A stretch of 64,000 nt of DNA, taken from positions 24,925 to 88,924 of IMG/VR virus record IMGVR_UViG_3300034106_006471; one strand, given 5' to 3'. Positions 32,139-46,686 of the stretch are shown here, in pieces. A program made the translations under genes and the position numbers. Numbering within the stretch: position 1 is the stretch's first letter; every line of letters begins with the position of its first letter. The stretch is from a virus. The notes under the pieces were generated by a model, which did not search any database, was not told the origin of the DNA, and saw only the letters and a list, made by a program, of their open reading frames with translations.

Positions 32139-32942
32139 TCAAAAATCCTTAATAGTAATTTTAAAATCGGTAGTTTTATCGTCTTGTAAAGTACGAATAC
32201 TGTGTAATAATTTTGAATAAATCAAAGATGCTCTAGTGTTAGAAAAATCTTTCTCTTGCTTAATCCTTATCAATTTCCAACCTTTTCCTAATATCAACCC
32301 CTCCTTTTTTGCATCATATTTTTTATTTCTTTTTAGAGATTCAGAACCCCAAACCGGTTCGAAATGACTAGGACCATCAACTTCTATGGCTATATTAGAT
32401 TCTGGTAAAAAAAGATCAATCTGTAATTTTGTATTGAGTAGTGTTTGTTCTTTATGGAATTGAACTTTGATATTATCTTTTATTAAAGCATTTAGTAAAT
32501 ATTTTTCTAATTTGGAACCAGTTTTGCTACTAGCTCTTACAGCATCGTTGGCTTTTTTCAAAATCAATTCTTGATCATCAGGATTCATAGATTCCCATCT
32601 TTCCCTACTTTGATTTTTTCTTTTTTCTAGTTCGTCGTCAGACATATTGTCCCATGATTTCATAACGGAATTACCTATCTTATCCTTAACGCTTTGCGGT
32701 CTAGATTTTCCTTTGGTTGGGTGTTTATGAGATCCTGTTTGTATAGCATTTTTTTGAGCTTCGCTTTTGTCTCTAATTTTTATACCAAATTTCGTAGCAT
32801 CTCTTCTAAGCTTATTGGAATATGTATTATATTTTTCTGCTATACTAGCAAAACTTAATTTATTGATTATATATAATTTCTCTAGTAATTTTTTTTTGTC
32901 TATATCAGATAGATTATTGTACGAATTTACTGAACTGCTCAT
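32139..32942 (-). CDS. Free-standing homing endonuclease-like protein (Vsr-like PD-(D/E)XK fold)
   Basis: 267 aa. The start is ATG 32942, with GAGG 9-12 nt upstream; the longer frame would overlap the neighbour further. Residues 10-50 look like a helix-turn-helix (FASIAEKYNTYSNKLRRDA). Residues about 72-85 (GKSRPQSVKDKIG) match the NUMOD3-type DNA-binding repeat common in phage homing endonucleases. Residues about 182-225 carry IAIEVDGPSHF and GWKLIRIK, the core of Vsr/DUF559-like nucleases. This combination is typical of mobile phage endonucleases rather than repair enzymes. It sits at the edge of the glycosyltransferase cassette and overlaps the next gene's end by 29 nt. Confidence 0.65.
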   Translation of the reverse strand: MSSSVNSYNNLSDIDKKKLLEKLYIINKLSFASIAEKYNTYSNKLRRDATKFGIKIRDKSEAQKNAIQTGSHKHPTKGKSRPQSVKDKIGNSVMKSWDNMSDDELEKRKNQSRERWESMNPDDQELILKKANDAVRASSKTGSKLEKYLLNALIKDNIKVQFHKEQTLLNTKLQIDLFLPESNIAIEVDGPSHFEPVWGSESLKRNKKYDAKKEGLILGKGWKLIRIKQEKDFSNTRASLIYSKLLHSIRTLQDDKTTDFKITIKDF

Positions 32943-33369
32943 AATTAATATCCTCACATATGCCGATAGAATTATTCCATACCATATTATATATCTCATG
33001 CAGATAAGTGCTGTTTGCGATCACTTTTAATTTATCGTGTTTCATGATATTTTTCCAGTCAGAATAGTGACTATATGATATTTGCCACGGTATATTTTGA
33101 GCATAGAAATATAGATTTTTACATTTTATAGATCCTTCTGCTATTAATAGTGACTGTATATCAAATACGACTAAAGAACCATCAAAATATTTTGAATGAC
33201 TAAGTGGTAATATTGGTATATTTTTTGTATCTATTTTTTCTGAATATTGATTAAATAGTACTATATGTTGTTTGGGATGATTTTTAATATAAGAACCCAA
33301 AGTATCGCATAATTTTTCATGGAGCTGTATGTTCTCTAGTGTAATTGCAAAAAATCCAAGATCATTCAT
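32914..33369 (-). CDS. Hypothetical protein of the glycosyltransferase-like cassette
   Basis: 151 aa, joined by a short overlap to the gene before it. The sequence alternates hydrophobic strands and helices (HIVLFNQYSEK, GSLVVFDIQSLL, LKVIANSTYLHEIY), which is reminiscent of one Rossmann-like half of a GT-B glycosyltransferase. No nucleotide-sugar motif is identifiable. Its role is inferred only from neighbours. Confidence 0.4.
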   Translation of the reverse strand: MNDLGFFAITLENIQLHEKLCDTLGSYIKNHPKQHIVLFNQYSEKIDTKNIPILPLSHSKYFDGSLVVFDIQSLLIAEGSIKCKNLYFYAQNIPWQISYSHYSDWKNIMKHDKLKVIANSTYLHEIYNMVWNNSIGICEDINYEQFSKFVQ

Positions 33370-39500: not shown

Positions 39501-39875
39501 TCAGAAAGCAACAGTCTCTGTACTTTCGGTTTTATTGGTCTTGGAGAGCTTAGTAATCTTAGAAAAATTATTAACTCTTACCTTTAAACTACTATGCTTA
39601 ACACCATCTTTTTCCCAGCTATCGTTCCTTAGAGATCCTTCTATCATTACTAAATCACCCTTTTTAAAAGAAGAACCAATAACCTCAGCACCTGTATCCC
39701 AAGCTTCGCAATTAATAAAAGAAGTAATCTTATCTTTTTCTCCGTTAGCCTTTGTATACTCCCTTGACGTAGCAACAGTAAAGTTTACTACCGAAGTTTG
39801 CTTGCCATTACTATTAATGACTCTAACTTCTGGATCACGAGCAAGATTACCCTTAATCAATGTAATATTCATCAT
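39501..39875 (-). CDS. ssb: Single-stranded DNA-binding protein
   Basis: 124 aa. The start is set by AAGGAG at 39882-39887 and the ATG at 39875; a second ATG follows directly. MNITLIKGNLARDPEVR, SVVNFTVATSREY, SFINCEAWDTGAEVI and KGDLVMIEGSLRNDSW are the classic OB-fold SSB strands. The tail after the OB fold is only about 15 residues and ends TESTETVAF, so it is not the DDDIPF-type tip of bacterial SSBs, though it is acidic and ends in Phe. It protects single strands during phage replication. It has its own promoter-like sequence upstream and a terminator downstream, so it is probably a separate transcription unit. Confidence 0.95.
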   Translation of the reverse strand: MMNITLIKGNLARDPEVRVINSNGKQTSVVNFTVATSREYTKANGEKDKITSFINCEAWDTGAEVIGSSFKKGDLVMIEGSLRNDSWEKDGVKHSSLKVRVNNFSKITKLSKTNKTESTETVAF

Positions 39876-39918: not shown

Positions 39919-39946
39919 ATAATAGTTTGAGGAGGCCAAGAGTCAA
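39919..39946 (-). promoter_or_regulatory. Sigma-70-like promoter for ssb
   Basis: On the - strand, TTGACT (39946-39941), a 16-nt spacer, then TATTATAA (39924-39917). It lies 43 nt upstream of the ssb start codon. The -35 overlaps the last codons of the polymerase fragment. The same arrangement recurs upstream of the dCMP deaminase gene. Confidence 0.6.
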
Positions 39947-41067
39947 GATAAGGGAACAAAACACTTTTCCACTATAAAACCATCCTTGGACTTTGCTCTA
40001 CTTCCAGAAAAAACCAGAATATTTTCTTCAAATAAATGATGTTTATATTTTTGATAGGTTTCAGGAAATAATATAACCGAATCTAAACTACCTGTCTGAT
40101 CCTCTACTGTCAAAAAAGCCATCTCTTGACCAGGAGTTTTTCCGGTTTTAGTTTTGATAGCATTAATATAAGTTATTTCGCCAGCAAGTAAGATTTTTTG
40201 ATTAATATTAGAATGTTTAAAATCTCTACATGTACTATTGGTCATACTAATATCATAAGAGTCTAATTTAGAACAAGATATAGCAGTTCCCAGGTACGCC
40301 GCTTCGTTATCTGCTAACCATTCCACCTTATCTATTAAAGAATACGGTGGACTAATATATGTCTGTAAAAGATCTTGTATAATAAGTTTTCTATTTTTAT
40401 TTACTTTTGTATGATTAATTAATAAATTTAAACAATCCTTGAGCGTAGTTTTATTACTAATTAATATTGGTTTTAAATAATCAATTTCTTTGGTGGTTAA
40501 AGAGGATGATATTTCAAAATCAAATAATATTTCTGTTCTATTTTTGCCAAAATAGTCTATAGCTCCGCAACTAATAATTGCTTTAGATGAAGAAGAATTT
40601 ATTTTATGTAAAACCCCAAATAGCATTTGTAAATAATTCATTTTTGAAATACTATTATTAGTGTTTAATTCTAATAATTTATTATAAACACTTACTCCTA
40701 AGCCCTTAATATCTGTTAATCCAAAATATATTTTATTATTTTTGATTTCAAAAAGCTTATTCATTAATCTTAAATCAGGTAAACATATACTAATATCCAT
40801 CTCATTAGCATTTTTTACCAATTGTTTTATTTCTTGCTGAGGATCGACTTTGTCTTTAGCAAATCTAAGATAAGAGCAAAAAAAGGCTTGAGGAAAATGG
40901 GCTTTAGTATATGCAGATAAGTAGGCATTCATAGCATAGCTAACGCCATGAGAGTTAGAGGTGGCTATTCCATTACCAAAGAATAAATGCTGATTAGACT
41001 TAACTTCAATATCTACTGTTGGTTTTATTCCAACTTTCTCGATTTTTGTAATTTTTCTCGCTATCAC
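39943..41067 (-). CDS. dnaE: DNA polymerase III alpha, C-terminal fragment fused to C-terminal intein half
   Basis: 374 aa, starting at GTG 41067 (AAGGA 8 nt upstream) that overlaps the stop of the homing endonuclease. Residues 1-38 are a C-terminal split-intein half ending FFGNGIATSN, with the terminal Asn as expected; residue 39 is Ser, the first residue of the C-extein. The extein starts SHGVSYAMNAYLSAYTKAHF, matching the conserved SHa.sYa..sY..AylKahyP of DnaE. HhH-like and OB-fold regions follow (ILLAGEITYINAIKTKTGK, AFLTVEDQTGSLDSVIF-type strands). With the other fragments the spliced polymerase would be about 1161 residues, close to a normal bacterial DnaE. Confidence 0.9.
   Translation of the reverse strand: MIARKITKIEKVGIKPTVDIEVKSNQHLFFGNGIATSNSHGVSYAMNAYLSAYTKAHFPQAFFCSYLRFAKDKVDPQQEIKQLVKNANEMDISICLPDLRLMNKLFEIKNNKIYFGLTDIKGLGVSVYNKLLELNTNNSISKMNYLQMLFGVLHKINSSSSKAIISCGAIDYFGKNRTEILFDFEISSSLTTKEIDYLKPILISNKTTLKDCLNLLINHTKVNKNRKLIIQDLLQTYISPPYSLIDKVEWLADNEAAYLGTAISCSKLDSYDISMTNSTCRDFKHSNINQKILLAGEITYINAIKTKTGKTPGQEMAFLTVEDQTGSLDSVILFPETYQKYKHHLFEENILVFSGSRAKSKDGFIVEKCFVPLS
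40954..41067 (-). other. Split intein, C-terminal half (Int-C, 38 residues)
   Basis: Residues 1-38 of the C-terminal polymerase fragment. The pattern KPTVDIEVKSNQHLFFGNGI matches intein block F; the end ATSN then Ser matches block G, except that the usual His before the terminal Asn is Ser. The Ser+1 codon is at 40951-40953. The partner half lies about 0.9 kb upstream. Confidence 0.9.
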
Positions 41068-41960
41068 TGTTTTTTCCTTAAATAATTTTTTCTAGCTTGA
41101 ATTGTTGCTAGGTTTCTGTTTGGAAGCATGGGTACTAGATTTTTTGTTTGTCTTTCATTAATATGTTTCAATATAATAGCATCTTCTTTTTCGGTCCAAA
41201 ACTTATAATCTGAACTGATTTCTAAAAATTTATCATATTTTCTTTGTAGTTTAAAGGTGGCATCTTTATATATAACATCAAACAACTTGATGCAGTCTGT
41301 TTGACAGAACTTAAGTTCATAGTATTTTTTCTTTATTTTTTTAACATTGCCAAATCCTAAATAGTTATGAATATCATCTAAAATCTGTTTGGATACAGAC
41401 ACTATATTGGCATAGTAATAGTCTTTGCCTCTACGATGAAAATTCGTTTTCCATATCGACCCATCTCCATCAAAAAATCCACGAATAAAATGACTTATGT
41501 ATTTCTTGGGCATCTTTGGTAATTTTAGATTAAATGTTTTATTATGATCTATACCTAATTTAATTAATTTTTTGTGTATTTTTTTGGAAAATATACATAT
41601 TTGGCATTTATCTTTTGATACTCTGATTTTAGATTCTGTAGATATTTTATCTCTAATGTACTCTAGCATGGCTATGTCTTTTATGTGTATTCCAATAGTA
41701 ATATATGGTCTTTTTTCCCAAACATGGCCGTCTGATGCGATAAAACCTAGACAATAAGCTAGATCTATGGACCACTTAGTAAAAAATTTATCATTGGCAA
41801 AATATTTTATTTGAGCCCCACTGGATTTTTTAGGAATTCCATACTTTTCTATATAATTAAGAACAGTCGTTCTTCCAATATTTTTTATTTTGGATATTTG
41901 TATAGATCCAAGATTTTGAATAACATATAAATTATATAGTTCATTCTTATCAATTAACAT
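41064..41960 (-). CDS. Free-standing LAGLIDADG homing endonuclease between intein halves
   Basis: 298 aa. Residues about 1-60 have a helix-turn-helix (SIQISKIKNIGRTTVLNYIEKYGIP). Two LAGLIDADG-type helices follow: LAYCLGFIASDGHV (about 68-81) and FIRGFFDGDGSI (about 157-168), each ending in the catalytic acidic residue. The last 50 residues (FWTEKEDAIILKHI, LPNRNLATIQARKNYLRK) look like a Myb/SANT-type DNA-binding domain. It has no protein-splicing motifs, so it is a separate enzyme rather than an intein-embedded one. Its stop overlaps the GTG of the Int-C gene. It probably cuts an uninterrupted polymerase allele and so spreads this locus. Confidence 0.9.
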   Translation of the reverse strand: MLIDKNELYNLYVIQNLGSIQISKIKNIGRTTVLNYIEKYGIPKKSSGAQIKYFANDKFFTKWSIDLAYCLGFIASDGHVWEKRPYITIGIHIKDIAMLEYIRDKISTESKIRVSKDKCQICIFSKKIHKKLIKLGIDHNKTFNLKLPKMPKKYISHFIRGFFDGDGSIWKTNFHRRGKDYYYANIVSVSKQILDDIHNYLGFGNVKKIKKKYYELKFCQTDCIKLFDVIYKDATFKLQRKYDKFLEISSDYKFWTEKEDAIILKHINERQTKNLVPMLPNRNLATIQARKNYLRKKQ

Positions 41961-41996
41961 AAATTACACTGTAAATAGTTTAATAAATATCATAAT

Positions 41997-42293
41997 CTAT
42001 GCTATACACATAATTTCTAAATTGTTAAGCAAAATTTCTGATAATGGATGAACTTTATTATCGGAACATAAAAATTTATGCTCCATAGTACAGGTTATAT
42101 GATTTCCATTATCTAATGTTATTTTAAAGACTTCTTGTTTACCATGATCATATTTCTTAATAACTTCAATATATTTATTTTCATATGTATTGTCATTACT
42201 TATTACTGGAGAAAGTATCTTTTCTCCTATGTCTAGATCTTTTATTGTTTTTTCTCCTGATTCAGTCAGCACCACAGTTTCTTCTAGTATCGA
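41997..42293 (-). other. Split intein, N-terminal half (Int-N, 98 residues)
   Basis: The Ser1 codon is at 42291-42293, directly after FNK of the polymerase. Block A (SILEETVVLTESGEKTIKDL) and block B (GNHITCTMEH, with the Thr and His expected at the catalytic site) are visible. The insertion point is the conserved FNK/SH site of DnaE. Ser instead of Cys at position 1 is less common but known among inteins. Confidence 0.9.
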
Positions 42294-42890
42294 CTTATTA
42301 AAACTGTACCTTTGACTTTTTTCGATCCATCCGAATATTTCCTGGGCATCATTATCATTAACAATATTTTGTTTTTTACATCCCTCTAAAAATTTACCTT
42401 TAATTTCCGCCATAAGCTTAACATCTTTTTTTCCAATGCTTTTTCTTAAAGTATCGCTTTCTGATAATGTGAAACCAGCAATATCTTTTGCTATTTGTAT
42501 AGCTTGTTCTTGGTAAATTAATTCGCCAAGAGTTCCACTCAGGATAGGCTCTAAAGATGGATGAAAATAATCTATACTTTCATTATGATTTTTTCTATCT
42601 ATATAGTGATTTGTAACGCTTTTACCGTCTCTAATAGCTTCTAATGATCCTGGCCTTAAAATAGAAATCAAAGCAGACAACTGCTCCATATTTTCTGGTT
42701 TAAGTTTTTTGGCAATACTTTGACCCAAACGACTTTCTAGCTGAAATACTCCCTTAGTATTTCCATCTGAAATTAGATTCCATGTTTTTTTACAATTTAA
42801 ATTAATATTCTCTATTTTAGGAGAAAATATAATTCTATTGTCTTCAACACAAGAAAAAGAACAACCACAATCAAACTGTAATTTAGTCAT
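41997..42890 (-). CDS. dnaE: DNA polymerase III alpha, middle fragment fused to N-terminal intein half
   Basis: 297 aa. Residues 1-199 are the DnaE fingers-region segment: GNTKGVFQLESRLGQS, LISILRPGSLEAI, GELIYQEQAIQIAKDIAGFT, LRKSIGKKD and the end SQRYSFNK. The N-terminus has a Cys cluster (FDCGCSFSC). Residues 200-297 are a split-intein N-terminal half beginning with Ser (SILEETVVL). The protein therefore cannot complete the polymerase by itself: it needs trans-splicing to the Int-C fragment. The start ATG overlaps the stop of the upstream exonuclease gene. Confidence 0.9.
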   Translation of the reverse strand: MTKLQFDCGCSFSCVEDNRIIFSPKIENINLNCKKTWNLISDGNTKGVFQLESRLGQSIAKKLKPENMEQLSALISILRPGSLEAIRDGKSVTNHYIDRKNHNESIDYFHPSLEPILSGTLGELIYQEQAIQIAKDIAGFTLSESDTLRKSIGKKDVKLMAEIKGKFLEGCKKQNIVNDNDAQEIFGWIEKSQRYSFNKSILEETVVLTESGEKTIKDLDIGEKILSPVISNDNTYENKYIEVIKKYDHGKQEVFKITLDNGNHITCTMEHKFLCSDNKVHPLSEILLNNLEIMCIA

Positions 42891-43585
42891 TATGAGTTAA
42901 CAAAAGATCCTTTAAATTTAATTTTTTGACTTAAATTTCTGTGCAATCTTAAAAATCTAACAGCTATTTCTGCTGTGTCTTTTACATCTTTTAAAGCATC
43001 ATGAGAACCGTCTTTATTAATGCCTAAATAATCTCTTAAATTATCTAGAGTATAGTTTTTAAGTTCATTGTTTCCCTCAAACCAATAAAAGATAACATTC
43101 ATTATATCTAATATGTCTCTAGGATAGAATAATGATGATGACCCTTCTTTATTTAAGTTGCCATATTTTTTACTTAACCTATTGACTATCTTCATATCAA
43201 AGCGATTAATATTATATCCAGATGCTATTGGAGCACTAAAAAAACTCTTTTTGGTATTTCTGGTATGATACATATCTAAGTAGGATACAAATCTTTCCCA
43301 CCCATTTTTTTGATCTGGATAATTTTTCCAAGAAGAAAGAATATCTTCTTTAGAACATCCTCTAACTTTTGAATGAAAATCTAAAACATCACTGTCCCCA
43401 TAAGCATAGCTTTCATTATCTATTAATTTTTCTGGTTTTAAATTAATATTAAATTCTGAATCTGGTATAACTTCTAATTTTAGAGGGTCTACCATAATAG
43501 CAGCAATTTGAACGGGACTGCATGATTCTGGATCGGACCCGTCTGTTTCCATATCAAAAACACAAATTTTTTGTAGATTAGGCAT
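42890..43585 (-). CDS. DnaQ-like 3'-5' exonuclease (proofreading subunit)
   Basis: 231 aa. ExoI motif FDMETDGSDPE (residues 9-19) carries the Asp and Glu metal ligands. A middle motif includes SGYNINRFDMKIV, and ExoIII is HDALKDVKDTAEI (about 194-206) with the His and Asp of the DEDDh class. This is the family of DnaQ/epsilon proofreading nucleases that work with DnaE. The gene sits between two polymerase fragments, overlapping the 59-aa gene upstream and the middle fragment downstream, which supports a shared complex. Confidence 0.9.
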   Translation of the reverse strand: MPNLQKICVFDMETDGSDPESCSPVQIAAIMVDPLKLEVIPDSEFNINLKPEKLIDNESYAYGDSDVLDFHSKVRGCSKEDILSSWKNYPDQKNGWERFVSYLDMYHTRNTKKSFFSAPIASGYNINRFDMKIVNRLSKKYGNLNKEGSSSLFYPRDILDIMNVIFYWFEGNNELKNYTLDNLRDYLGINKDGSHDALKDVKDTAEIAVRFLRLHRNLSQKIKFKGSFVNS

Positions 43586-43757
43586 TTATTCCTACTTCCG
43601 ATGATGGTTGAACGTAAATGGTATTATTACTATCATTAGCCGAGCAGGCATTTACTGTTTTGCAACAACTTACTCTAACGTCGTTGATTTTAATAAACTC
43701 TTGACCATTCAATGTGAATCTATCTCCTACCGCTAGTTCTGAAAATACTTTATTCAT
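43578..43757 (-). CDS. Small conserved-type phage protein (59 aa)
   Basis: This gene is below the usual ORF cut-off. ATG 43757 overlaps the stop of the first polymerase fragment (ATGA), and its own stop overlaps the exonuclease start region, so it is coupled at both ends. The sequence begins MNKVFSELAVGDRFTLNGQE and continues FIKINDVRVSCCKTVNAC, a short beta-rich pattern (F..L.vG..F..NG..y.Ki) seen in small phage proteins of unknown role. The two adjacent cysteines are notable. Function unknown; a binding partner of the polymerase or exonuclease is a guess. Confidence 0.7.
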   Translation of the reverse strand: MNKVFSELAVGDRFTLNGQEFIKINDVRVSCCKTVNACSANDSNNTIYVQPSSEVGINA

Positions 43758-45634
43758 AATTCTACTCCTTGATTATATAGTATATCTGAAATATGCATAG
43801 CTTTATCTAGAAATGCTAATCCTAGTATATCAAATTTAATAACTCCCAAAGCTTCTAAGTCATTCATTTCCATGCCTGCGATCATTTGTTGATTTTTATT
43901 ATCATATATCATAGGACAAATATCTTCTAGATTATCTCTAGATATTACTACACCAGCAGCATGTTTTGATTGATTAGACTTGGTGCCTTCTAATCTTATA
44001 GCTTGTTCGAATCTTTTTGCAAGCGGACCTTCTAGTGTCTCATCTTCTTTTAAAGAACACCACTCTTTTAGCTTATCTGAACTATTTTCTAGAGCCCATC
44101 TAATAATACTAGATTCGCCTGTTTCTTCTTTCATTTCTTGAAGCTCGTCTGCAATTTTAGCTTCGTCAGGTATATTTTTGGTTATTTTATTCATCTCTTC
44201 AAAACTAATATTGCCATACACTCTTAAAACTTCTTTTAAAGCCCCTCTTCCTTTCATTGTATTAAAAGTTAACATTTGTGCTACTTTTTTAGTTCCATAT
44301 TTATTTTTGATATAATCAATAACATAATCTCTTTTATTAATAGGAACGTCTATATCTATATCTGGTAGAGATACTCTGTCTTTGGAGGATCTACCAATAT
44401 TGTAAAATCTTTCAAAAATTAGATGATAAGGAATAGGATTTACTCCAGTTATTCCTATAAGATATGAAACTAAACAACCGGCCGCACTTCCTCGACCAAC
44501 TCCAGCCAACCAATTATTTTTCTTTACATAATCAACAATATCCTGAACTATTAAAAAATAACTACTTAAACCAGCACCCTGAAGAACTTCTAGTTCATGT
44601 TTTATTCTATCTACATAAATATTTTCATCTTCTTTAGATACTTTATTTTGAATTTTATCTCTCCAGCCATTTCTACATAATTGTCTTAGATATTGATCAG
44701 GATCATATCCTTCCGGACAATCAAAAGTTGGAAGAACTGGTCTGCTAGTAATATCATAATTTTCGCATAAGCTATCTACAAAATTGGTATTTTCTAATTC
44801 TTCTTCTGTATGAATATCTAGCATTTCTTGAAAAGAAGGAATATGATACTTATCTGATTTAAAAAAGCATCCCATGGGTGCTGATTCGTCATTTAATATT
44901 TTTCTATTAACTTCTGGTAATGTTAATTTTAAATTATTACATATTAATACTCTTTGATCAACAGCATCTTCGCTTTCACAATAATGAGCATCTGGGGTTG
45001 CTATTAATTTTGTTTGTGTTTTTTGACCTATAGTTCTAATTAAGTTTGTTAAAGCAATTTGATCAGCATTGTGTTCTTGGTCTATTAATTGAGATTCTAA
45101 AAAGAAATTATCATTTCCAAACATACCTTTCATTTTACTAACAAATTCGCAGCCTAAATGAATAGGACTATCAGCTTTATGTAGTAGATTAGACAGTGAT
45201 GAACCTAAATGGCCACAGAAACCAATAATATTACCATCTAAAAGAGTTGATAAAGTATCAAAATCCAATCTTGGCTTATGATAGAACCTATCAGGATTAT
45301 TGCTAGCAGATATTATTTTTATTAAAGTTTTCCATCCATTATAGTTTTTAGCAAGTAGTAAAAAATGAGACAGTTGACTATTTTCTTTAGTTTTTAGTGT
45401 TGAGTTTTGATCACATACATATATTTCACAGCCTAATATTGGTTTAATTCCTGCTTTTTTCATATGAGAATAAAATTGCACAGCACCGCTAATAGAGCCG
45501 TGATCAGTTAGAGCACAAGAAGTTGCTCCTATTTTTGCACATCTAGCAGCTATTTGTGCTGGCTTACTTAAGCCATCTAGCAACGAGAAGTGGGAGTGTA
45601 CATGTAGGGGCGTGTATTTGCCTCCTGTTGTCAT
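43754..45634 (-). CDS. dnaE: DNA polymerase III alpha, N-terminal fragment (PHP and palm)
   Basis: 626 aa. The PHP domain is at the N-terminus (LHVHSHFSLLDG, ALTDHGSISGAV, KPILGCEIYV). The polymerase core includes GRGSAAGCLVSYLIGITG, the catalytic Asp pair in PDIDIDV (about 424-430) and the third Asp in IKFDILGL (about 600). Thus all three catalytic acids are on this piece, which ends soon after at ILYNQGVEL; the fingers, HhH and OB parts lie on two other genes. There is no intein at this end, so the first two pieces must assemble by contact. AAAGG precedes the ATG. Confidence 0.95.
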   Translation of the reverse strand: MTTGGKYTPLHVHSHFSLLDGLSKPAQIAARCAKIGATSCALTDHGSISGAVQFYSHMKKAGIKPILGCEIYVCDQNSTLKTKENSQLSHFLLLAKNYNGWKTLIKIISASNNPDRFYHKPRLDFDTLSTLLDGNIIGFCGHLGSSLSNLLHKADSPIHLGCEFVSKMKGMFGNDNFFLESQLIDQEHNADQIALTNLIRTIGQKTQTKLIATPDAHYCESEDAVDQRVLICNNLKLTLPEVNRKILNDESAPMGCFFKSDKYHIPSFQEMLDIHTEEELENTNFVDSLCENYDITSRPVLPTFDCPEGYDPDQYLRQLCRNGWRDKIQNKVSKEDENIYVDRIKHELEVLQGAGLSSYFLIVQDIVDYVKKNNWLAGVGRGSAAGCLVSYLIGITGVNPIPYHLIFERFYNIGRSSKDRVSLPDIDIDVPINKRDYVIDYIKNKYGTKKVAQMLTFNTMKGRGALKEVLRVYGNISFEEMNKITKNIPDEAKIADELQEMKEETGESSIIRWALENSSDKLKEWCSLKEDETLEGPLAKRFEQAIRLEGTKSNQSKHAAGVVISRDNLEDICPMIYDNKNQQMIAGMEMNDLEALGVIKFDILGLAFLDKAMHISDILYNQGVEL

Positions 45635-45645
45635 TTTTTAAACCT

Positions 45646-46686
45646 TTAGTGTGTTGAGCCAGGTGATTTATAAAACCCGACAGAGTGATTTGGTGCGCTA
45701 TAGTTTTGTACCACATGATCCATACCATGCAACTCTATTTCGTGACGAATTTGTTCACATTTTGTCATATGTTTACCAAATGGAGTAATTTGATTATCTC
45801 TATATTCAATAATTGGGTCTATATTTGTATTTTCAAAAGTAGTTTTACCAAAATGACACAATTTGGTACACATCCAACATTTATTTAGTTTAGGCTTTTT
45901 AACATTTTTTATAAGCTCAAATTTTTGTCGTAACATATCCTCCGTGCTTGCTAAATCTTTTTTATCAAAACAAATAGAAAATGGGCCACCGTCATTTACA
46001 AAATATATAGAAAAAATAATATGTTCTATTTCAGGATATAATTTACTAATAGCATAATGATAAATTTTTAATTGAGGATCTTTTTCTAATTTTTCTATTG
46101 TTTTTTCTTCTCCAGTAGCCCAGTCCAATCTTCTTCCAGTTTTCCAGTCTATGATTTCAATAGTTTTATTATTTGCCAGTGTGATTAAGTCTATTGTTCC
46201 TTTTAAGGCCAAATTACCAGATATTTCTCCAGACGGAGTTTTGAAGTTGTATTGGGCCCACTTCTTATCTATTGTAAAATCAAAATGCTGCTCAGGAGAA
46301 ATTATTTGTCTGTTTCTCGGATCAAACATACCATTATTAAATTCTATAGCTTTATAGACCCAACTATGACAATCTTTGTAGTCTTTATTAGTCCAATTAT
46401 GGTGACTATTAGCTGTTGAGTAGTAGTCGTATACTTTTTTAATAATAGAATCTAAACTATATGATGAACAACTAATTTTACCTACTACATCATCTTGGAT
46501 AAAATCTATATTGTCCTGTTGAGCTTTTTTGATTACTGCAAGTATTTCTAAAATTTTATGAACAGTTGTCCCTTTGTCTGCTTTAAGGCCGCTTGGACCT
46601 CTCCAGCCTAAAACATACTCGATAAAATATTGCTGTTCACAAAGAGAATGAGTATTGTACGAAGAGCTTCTGAAATATGTAGTAAT
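45646..46686 (-). CDS. PD-(D/E)XK nuclease (Cas4/RecB-like) with non-standard start
   Basis: About 346 aa. The frame extends 119 codons upstream of the first ATG (46329) and stays in the same reading frame: it contains TYFRSSSYNTHSLCEQQYFI and YVLGWRGPSGLKADKGTTVH, the conserved N-terminal block of RecB/Cas4-like phage nucleases. Just upstream is a stop, so the only possible starts are ATT (46686) or ATA (46689), with AAGGA nearby and TAATT overlapping the previous stop. The nuclease core is GTIDLI followed by IEIIDWKTG (about 162-180). A Cys cluster (CWMCTKLC, about 267-282) may hold zinc or an Fe-S cluster. Likely DNA-end processing in recombination. Confidence 0.8.
   Translation of the reverse strand: MTTYFRSSSYNTHSLCEQQYFIEYVLGWRGPSGLKADKGTTVHKILEILAVIKKAQQDNIDFIQDDVVGKISCSSYSLDSIIKKVYDYYSTANSHHNWTNKDYKDCHSWVYKAIEFNNGMFDPRNRQIISPEQHFDFTIDKKWAQYNFKTPSGEISGNLALKGTIDLITLANNKTIEIIDWKTGRRLDWATGEEKTIEKLEKDPQLKIYHYAISKLYPEIEHIIFSIYFVNDGGPFSICFDKKDLASTEDMLRQKFELIKNVKKPKLNKCWMCTKLCHFGKTTFENTNIDPIIEYRDNQITPFGKHMTKCEQIRHEIELHGMDHVVQNYSAPNHSVGFYKSPGSTH

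Follow-up and report, generated by a model that had tools for sequence, protein, structure and literature searches.

In the "fractured genes" described by Dassa et al. (2009, NAR 37:2560; as cited in PMC7090010 and PMC3653736), a phage gene for DNA metabolism is broken by the N- and C-terminal halves of a split intein (Int-N and Int-C), and a free-standing endonuclease is encoded between them. We analyzed a window of 64,000 nucleotides (nt) from an uncultured virus (bases 24925-88924 of the 88,924-base IMG/VR record IMGVR_UViG_3300034106_006471), in which the alpha subunit of DNA polymerase III (Pol III alpha, DnaE) is divided among three genes. One of its two breaks shows the same features, namely a free-standing endonuclease open reading frame (ORF) between intein halves and uninterrupted alleles in relatives. 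It differs from this closest known type in its target, the bond FNK/S of DnaE (the slash marks the insertion point) in a polymerase that is already encoded by two genes, and in its endonuclease, which is of the LAGLIDADG family. It is highly probable that the locus codes for the replicative Pol III alpha of an uncultured tailed phage and that the gene was broken twice by different routes. Break 1 would be old and fixed, with products that assemble non-covalently, and break 2 would be a split-intein break that is repaired by trans-splicing and spread as a homing cassette. The working enzyme would then consist of two alpha polypeptides, not three, plus an exonuclease.

The split DnaE intein of cyanobacteria (Ssp/Npu) divides the same fingers segment of Pol III alpha, and the intein halves of the window, joined in silico, match the solved DnaE inteins 2keq and 4kl5. 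However, the cyanobacterial intein begins with Cys1, whereas the one here has Ser1 at an FNK/S junction and an endonuclease gene between its adjacent halves. The cyanobacterial insertion bond, EY/CFNK, is also a different one. The cis mini-intein in the DnaE of Rhodococcus phage Grayson interrupts the same bond FNK/S, followed by SHSVAY, but it lies within one polypeptide, begins with Cys1, and has no endonuclease. Ser1 and Ser+1 at the junctions are shared with the cysteine-less split inteins of the CL/Aes123 PolB1 type (PMC13014065), although the predicted intein described here retains non-catalytic cysteines in its Int-N.

Break 2 separates two genes on the minus strand, as are all window genes located below. 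One codes for the first part of the fingers (DnaE2a, 199 amino acids (aa), 42294..42890; PF17657, DNA_pol3_finger, 2.6e-44; starting at E. coli alpha residue 584/585), which ends in RYSFNK and continues in frame into a 98-aa Int-N (42000..42293; TIGR01445, intein_Nterm, 6.6e-08, above the cut-off) with Ser1 and the block B motif TMEH. The other starts with GTG and codes for a 38-aa Int-C (40954..41067) ending in GIATSN, followed in frame by the rest of the fingers, the HHH and the OB domains (DnaE2b, 336 aa, 39946..40953; PF14579, HHH_6, 1.7e-08; PF01336, OB, 3.8e-05; extending to E. coli alpha residue ~1054), which begin with SHGVSYA. The residues of a split intein are thus present (Ser1, TxxH in block B, N38, and Ser+1). 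They are conserved in the window and in two relatives, L007 and L151, while a third, L040, has Cys1 instead. The joined halves match gp41-1 (6qaz) along their length, including block F (phmmer E = 2e-12), and pass both NCBIfam intein-end models (TIGR01445, and TIGR01443 with 16.6 bits against a cut-off of 15.6). Between the halves lies the gene for a 298-aa free-standing LAGLIDADG homing endonuclease (HE; 41064..41960; PF14528, LAGLIDADG_3, 4.5e-09; phrog_4645, 4.5e-37). Its two motifs, CLGFIASDG and RGFFDGDG, are invariant in 3 homologues, and it matches 2dch (1e-4). The original prediction for this DNA, made without database searches, had proposed three DnaE genes of 626, 199+98, and 38+336 aa, a split intein at FNK/SH, and a separate LAGLIDADG enzyme between its halves. 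The gene sizes and positions were confirmed, and the profile searches that it had called for found both the DnaE domains and intein_Nterm. The DnaE2a-IntN and IntC-DnaE2b proteins would be translated separately, associate, and trans-splice to give a DnaE2 of 535 aa, and on the sequence evidence protein trans-splicing is most likely the way in which the halves of break 2 are rejoined.

The distribution of the cassette suggests that break 2 is a recent, mobile insertion, because most relatives have an uninterrupted site and the carriers are spread across the tree. The site could be read in 102 non-redundant rows, and FNK/S was uninterrupted in 98 of them, so the intact alleles which the original prediction had proposed to look for are common. 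An intein was present in the other 4 (the window, L007, L151, and L040); L320 and L322 were added from a later scan and stand outside the 102. On a 108-row tree of DnaE1, the exonuclease, and DnaE2, the four intein rows need 4 changes and do not group together, and the closest relative of the window, L069 (81% identical), has an empty site. L007 and L151 show the same order of Int-N, HE, and Int-C as the window, with Ser1 and a LAGLIDADG gene, and they alone hold full-length homologues of the window HE. L320 has the same intein with Int-N and Int-C intact, but its LAGLIDADG gene is degenerate, lacking residues 33-128 and changed in frame, indicating that the intein can be retained without the endonuclease. 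In L040 and L322, a Cys1 intein is combined at FNK/S with a Vsr-like nuclease (a DUF559 match in L040; 66% identical to it in L322). Many of the loci in Dassa's set are likewise said to carry a Vsr-like endonuclease, and gp41-1, the nearest solved intein by sequence, is presumably a member of that set. The identity between the window and L151 is 79% for the HE, 55% for DnaE2b, and 65% for the exonuclease; between the window and L007 it is 69% for the HE and 59% for DnaE2b. The LAGLIDADG protein would cut uninterrupted FNK/S alleles of co-infecting relatives, and repair would copy the whole cassette in; homing into empty alleles is most likely its role. The scattered carriers, the HE identities, and the decay in L320 fit a cassette that homes and can then lose its endonuclease to decay, but not its intein.

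Break 1 is of another kind. DnaE1 (626 aa, 43754..45634) comprises the PHP, palm, and thumb of Pol III alpha (PF02811, 2.5e-34; PF07733, DNA_pol3_alpha, 1.1e-73; TIGR00594, 472 bits, above the cut-off), keeps all palm aspartates (PDIDIDV, IKFDILGL), and corresponds to E. coli/Taq alpha as far as the palm/fingers junction. It ends just past the region of the third catalytic Asp (IKFDILGL), and DnaE2 resumes at residue 584/585; the two ends flank E. coli alpha ~570-585, the domain junction. Break 1 also holds two genes beyond those of the original prediction. One is a 59-aa ORF (43578..43757) that overlaps the DnaE1 stop (ATGA); most relatives have a homologue of it in this position. The other codes for a DnaQ-type 3'-5' exonuclease (42890..43585; PF00929, 4e-12; phrog_192, DNA polymerase exonuclease subunit, 6.6e-20), whose DEDDh residues D11, E13, D130, H195, and D200 are invariant in 15 aligned sequences and which would do the proofreading. 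Since the order DnaE1-exonuclease-DnaE2 was found in all 175 records holding the three genes (175/175), even in relatives at ~40-46% identity, break 1 appears to have been inherited from the ancestor of a large clade of uncultured phages. DnaE2 alone, modeled with the intact L069 protein, gave an AlphaFold pLDDT of 88.5 and matched Pol III alpha structures from the fingers to the OB domain. DnaE1 (PHP-palm-thumb) and DnaE2 (fingers-HHH-OB) would assemble non-covalently into one active site, which is likely because working two-piece phage enzymes are known for NrdA and gp43 (PMC2988022). In the isolate Rossellomorea phage phiT1, this palm/fingers junction likewise divides DnaE into two genes (gp20/gp18). 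A small ORF of 49 aa separates them, but there is no exonuclease gene between the halves and no intein. In Bacillus phage KLEB27-3, an HNH gene cuts DnaE slightly further on than break 1, and several other sampled phages have a one-gene DnaE. A CGC motif (xCGCxF) at the start of DnaE2 (window 42890 region) is conserved in most of the clade. In L040, DUF1501, DUF1559/N-methylation, and ThyX-like genes lie between the exonuclease and DnaE2 (L040:10725-13788); the DUF1501 and DUF1559 genes are presumably associated with Planctomycetes and may hint at a planctomycete host.

The PHP domain, the palm with three Asp, the fingers, the HHH, and the OB domain of a family-C polymerase are all present over the three genes. 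By profile match, the pieces span E. coli alpha residues ~6 to ~1054, while no profile match to the C-terminal part of alpha beyond ~1054 was found in them. Neither polA, polB, nor a second fingers domain was found in the 88.9-kb record, and this lack of another replicative polymerase family supports DnaE as the replicase. The earlier description of a three-piece DnaE is right in that there are three genes, but the breaks are not one phenomenon: break 1 is intein-free and kept in every record with all three genes, and only break 2 is an intein event. By sequence comparison, the "three-piece" DnaE would be two-piece by descent, with one recent, spliceable break.

Several points weigh against this interpretation. 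Int-C alone reaches 14.8 bits on TIGR01443, just under the cut-off of 15.6; the joined intein narrowly misses the Pfam cut-off (34.1 against 35.8 bits); and the penultimate intein residue is Ser, where His is usual. The AlphaFold model of DnaE2a-IntN is poor (pLDDT 51; four sequences) and gives no structural support. The HE dN/dS of ~0.1-0.16 points to purifying selection but is not a reliable number, as dS is near saturation. The 88.9-kb record may also be incomplete, and another polymerase could exist. The penultimate Ser and the borderline Int-C score would fit intein halves that are dead or unused, with DnaE2a and DnaE2b assembling unspliced as separate proteins, like NrdA of Aeromonas phage Aeh1 and gp43A/43B of phage 25. 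Genes in pieces do function in T4-like phages (PMC2988022), and break 1 of the same gene must work in this way. However, among carriers with 53-76% identity in their exteins, neither the catalytic residues nor the two splice junctions have been lost; L320 retains both intein halves intact while its HE decays; and the alignment of the joined intein to gp41-1 includes block F. We therefore regard unspliced assembly at break 2 as unlikely. The converse possibility is that break 1 is also bridged covalently, by an unrecognized split intein, trans-splicing, or a frameshift, given that the palm and fingers must share one active site. This is quite improbable, because intein profiles (Pfam, NCBIfam) match neither end of break 1, which led us to reject an intein there, all relatives have the exonuclease gene between the two ends, and these ends flank the domain junction.

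Group I introns often hold LAGLIDADG genes, and break 2 could in principle be such an intron or another RNA-level element rather than an intein. Yet the region has no Rfam match even at E up to 1, intein profiles match both sides, and the junctions meet the empty allele exactly at the protein level, which leaves this explanation with very little weight; no Rfam match was found elsewhere in the window either, nor in L100, L139, L040, and L056. Since the sequence comes from one metagenome-derived record, an assembly or sequencing error or a pseudogene was also considered, and an error joining the ORFs was among the refutations that the original prediction had named. This reading is hardly credible: the same arrangement occurs in the independent contigs L007 and L151, which rules out sequencing error as the cause, intein halves stand at the same site in L320, L040, and L322, dN/dS is low for both the HE and the intein, and no piece contains a stop codon. 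The non-covalent break 1 and the spliced break 2 remain the preferred explanation.

A further interruption was found in dnaE1 of relatives, where an insert of 6, 7, 8, 9, 10, 11, or 12 nt stands immediately behind the HVHS codons of PHP; 46 distinct alleles with the insert were counted, and 87 contexts are intact. The carriers include L007, L069 (L069:5252-5320), L005, L022, and L056; the insert is absent from the window, where the start of dnaE1 (45634 region) is intact. All inserts begin with TAA or TAG immediately 3' of a UCN serine codon, and together with the flanking codons they form a hairpin (median z -4.3 versus +0.2 in intact alleles), except that the two shortest alleles (L041, L042) have no stable one. 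None of 500 shuffles reached the observed score for pairing and covariation, and 11 cells had changes on both sides. In every insert, the final triplet has C as its middle base; it is mostly a UCN codon, resembling the serine codon that precedes the stop, and the PHP coding sequence continues after it. The insert lengths fall in all three frames, so that no single frameshift can restore dnaE1. The bypass in T4 gene 60 likewise involves a take-off codon, an adjacent stop, a hairpin, and a similar landing codon (PMC5009743). A short translational bypass of this type fits the insert best; alleles in which coding resumes at ATG might instead re-initiate internally. The insert needs 21 changes on the 108-row tree. 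Of the 29 rows that carry it, 7 have an HNH endonuclease gene, or what is left of one, immediately upstream of dnaE1, against none of the 79 rows without it (Fisher p 5.6e-5, uncorrected for relatedness). Such genes are found at L007:7257-7979, L026:7262-7978, and L056:7267-7986, and remnants in L126, L186, and L200. The T4 gene 60 insert is similarly tied to a neighboring homing endonuclease (PMC5009743), and the dnaE1 insert is a candidate mobile translational bypass element. Of the 68 matches to the bypass DNA pattern, 13 fell outside dnaE1; these had no hairpin and were set aside as chance.

Other insertions were seen in the same genes of relatives. L151 (824-3218 and 4066-7014) has a four-piece DnaE with two split inteins, one in DnaE1 (GRG/C..HN/S) without an endonuclease and one in DnaE2 (FNK/S) with a LAGLIDADG gene. 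L056 (8028-11088) and L089 (2041-5117) have a second fractured site in DnaE1 (PGRG/C..GVHN/S), and the gene between its halves codes for a different nuclease with weak similarity to Phage_endo_I. In L100 (2108-5101), a free-standing LAGLIDADG gene breaks DnaE1 near residue 428, and no intein was recognized there. Cis inteins occur in DnaE2 (two other sites, one with HNH), a Cas4-like gene, and the DnaB helicase (L021:10720-13086, L053:12167-14857, L027:5295-7235, L042:3175-5073), and for this reason the replication operon is an intein hot spot. The best matches in bacterial genomes were contigs in a Flavobacteriales metagenome-assembled genome (57%) and a Lokiarchaeota one (~42%), which are probably mis-binned phage DNA.

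In the window, the operon is ordered as DnaB helicase, primase, dNMP kinase, Cas4-like nuclease, DnaE1, 59-aa ORF, DnaQ-like exonuclease, DnaE2a-IntN, LAGLIDADG gene, IntC-DnaE2b, and SSB. The upstream neighbor of DnaE1 is the Cas4-like PD-(D/E)XK nuclease (45646..46329; PF12705, 3.7e-10), and the SSB gene comes next after DnaE2b (39501..39875; PF00436, 8e-25). Between DnaE1 and DnaE2a, each gene shares a few bases with the next, and the stop codon of the HE gene likewise runs into the start of Int-C (GTGA), suggesting that their translation may be coupled. Another homing-type endonuclease gene is located at 32139-32999 (phrog_559/phrog_9084).

No paper on a split family-C polymerase of this kind was found in the literature searched; a survey of 947 phage PolC proteins uses "split" only of the genome tree (PMC11348598). 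Within that literature, three features are new, although Dassa's list may hold an earlier DnaE case: the use of DnaE FNK/S as a fractured site, the pairing of a Ser1 split intein with a LAGLIDADG enzyme, and the location in a polymerase that is encoded by two genes throughout the clade. The arrangement of split intein and free-standing endonuclease reaches the main replicative polymerase. At its FNK/S site, Ser1 as well as Cys1 inteins occur, together with endonucleases of two unrelated families, and in one relative the endonuclease is seen in decay beside a surviving intein. With moderate confidence, we propose that this phage clade replicates with a permanently two-polypeptide Pol III alpha, with palm and fingers separate and the proofreader encoded between them, and that the same operon is a hot spot of three ways of rejoining a broken gene: the pieces assemble non-covalently, are trans-spliced by a split intein, or, in relatives, are translated as one across a mobile stop-plus-hairpin element that the ribosome skips. 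The dnaE1 insert may be a larger and more surprising result than the split-intein polymerase. The clade-wide separation of palm and fingers would offer a direct test of how far the Pol III active site assembles from parts.

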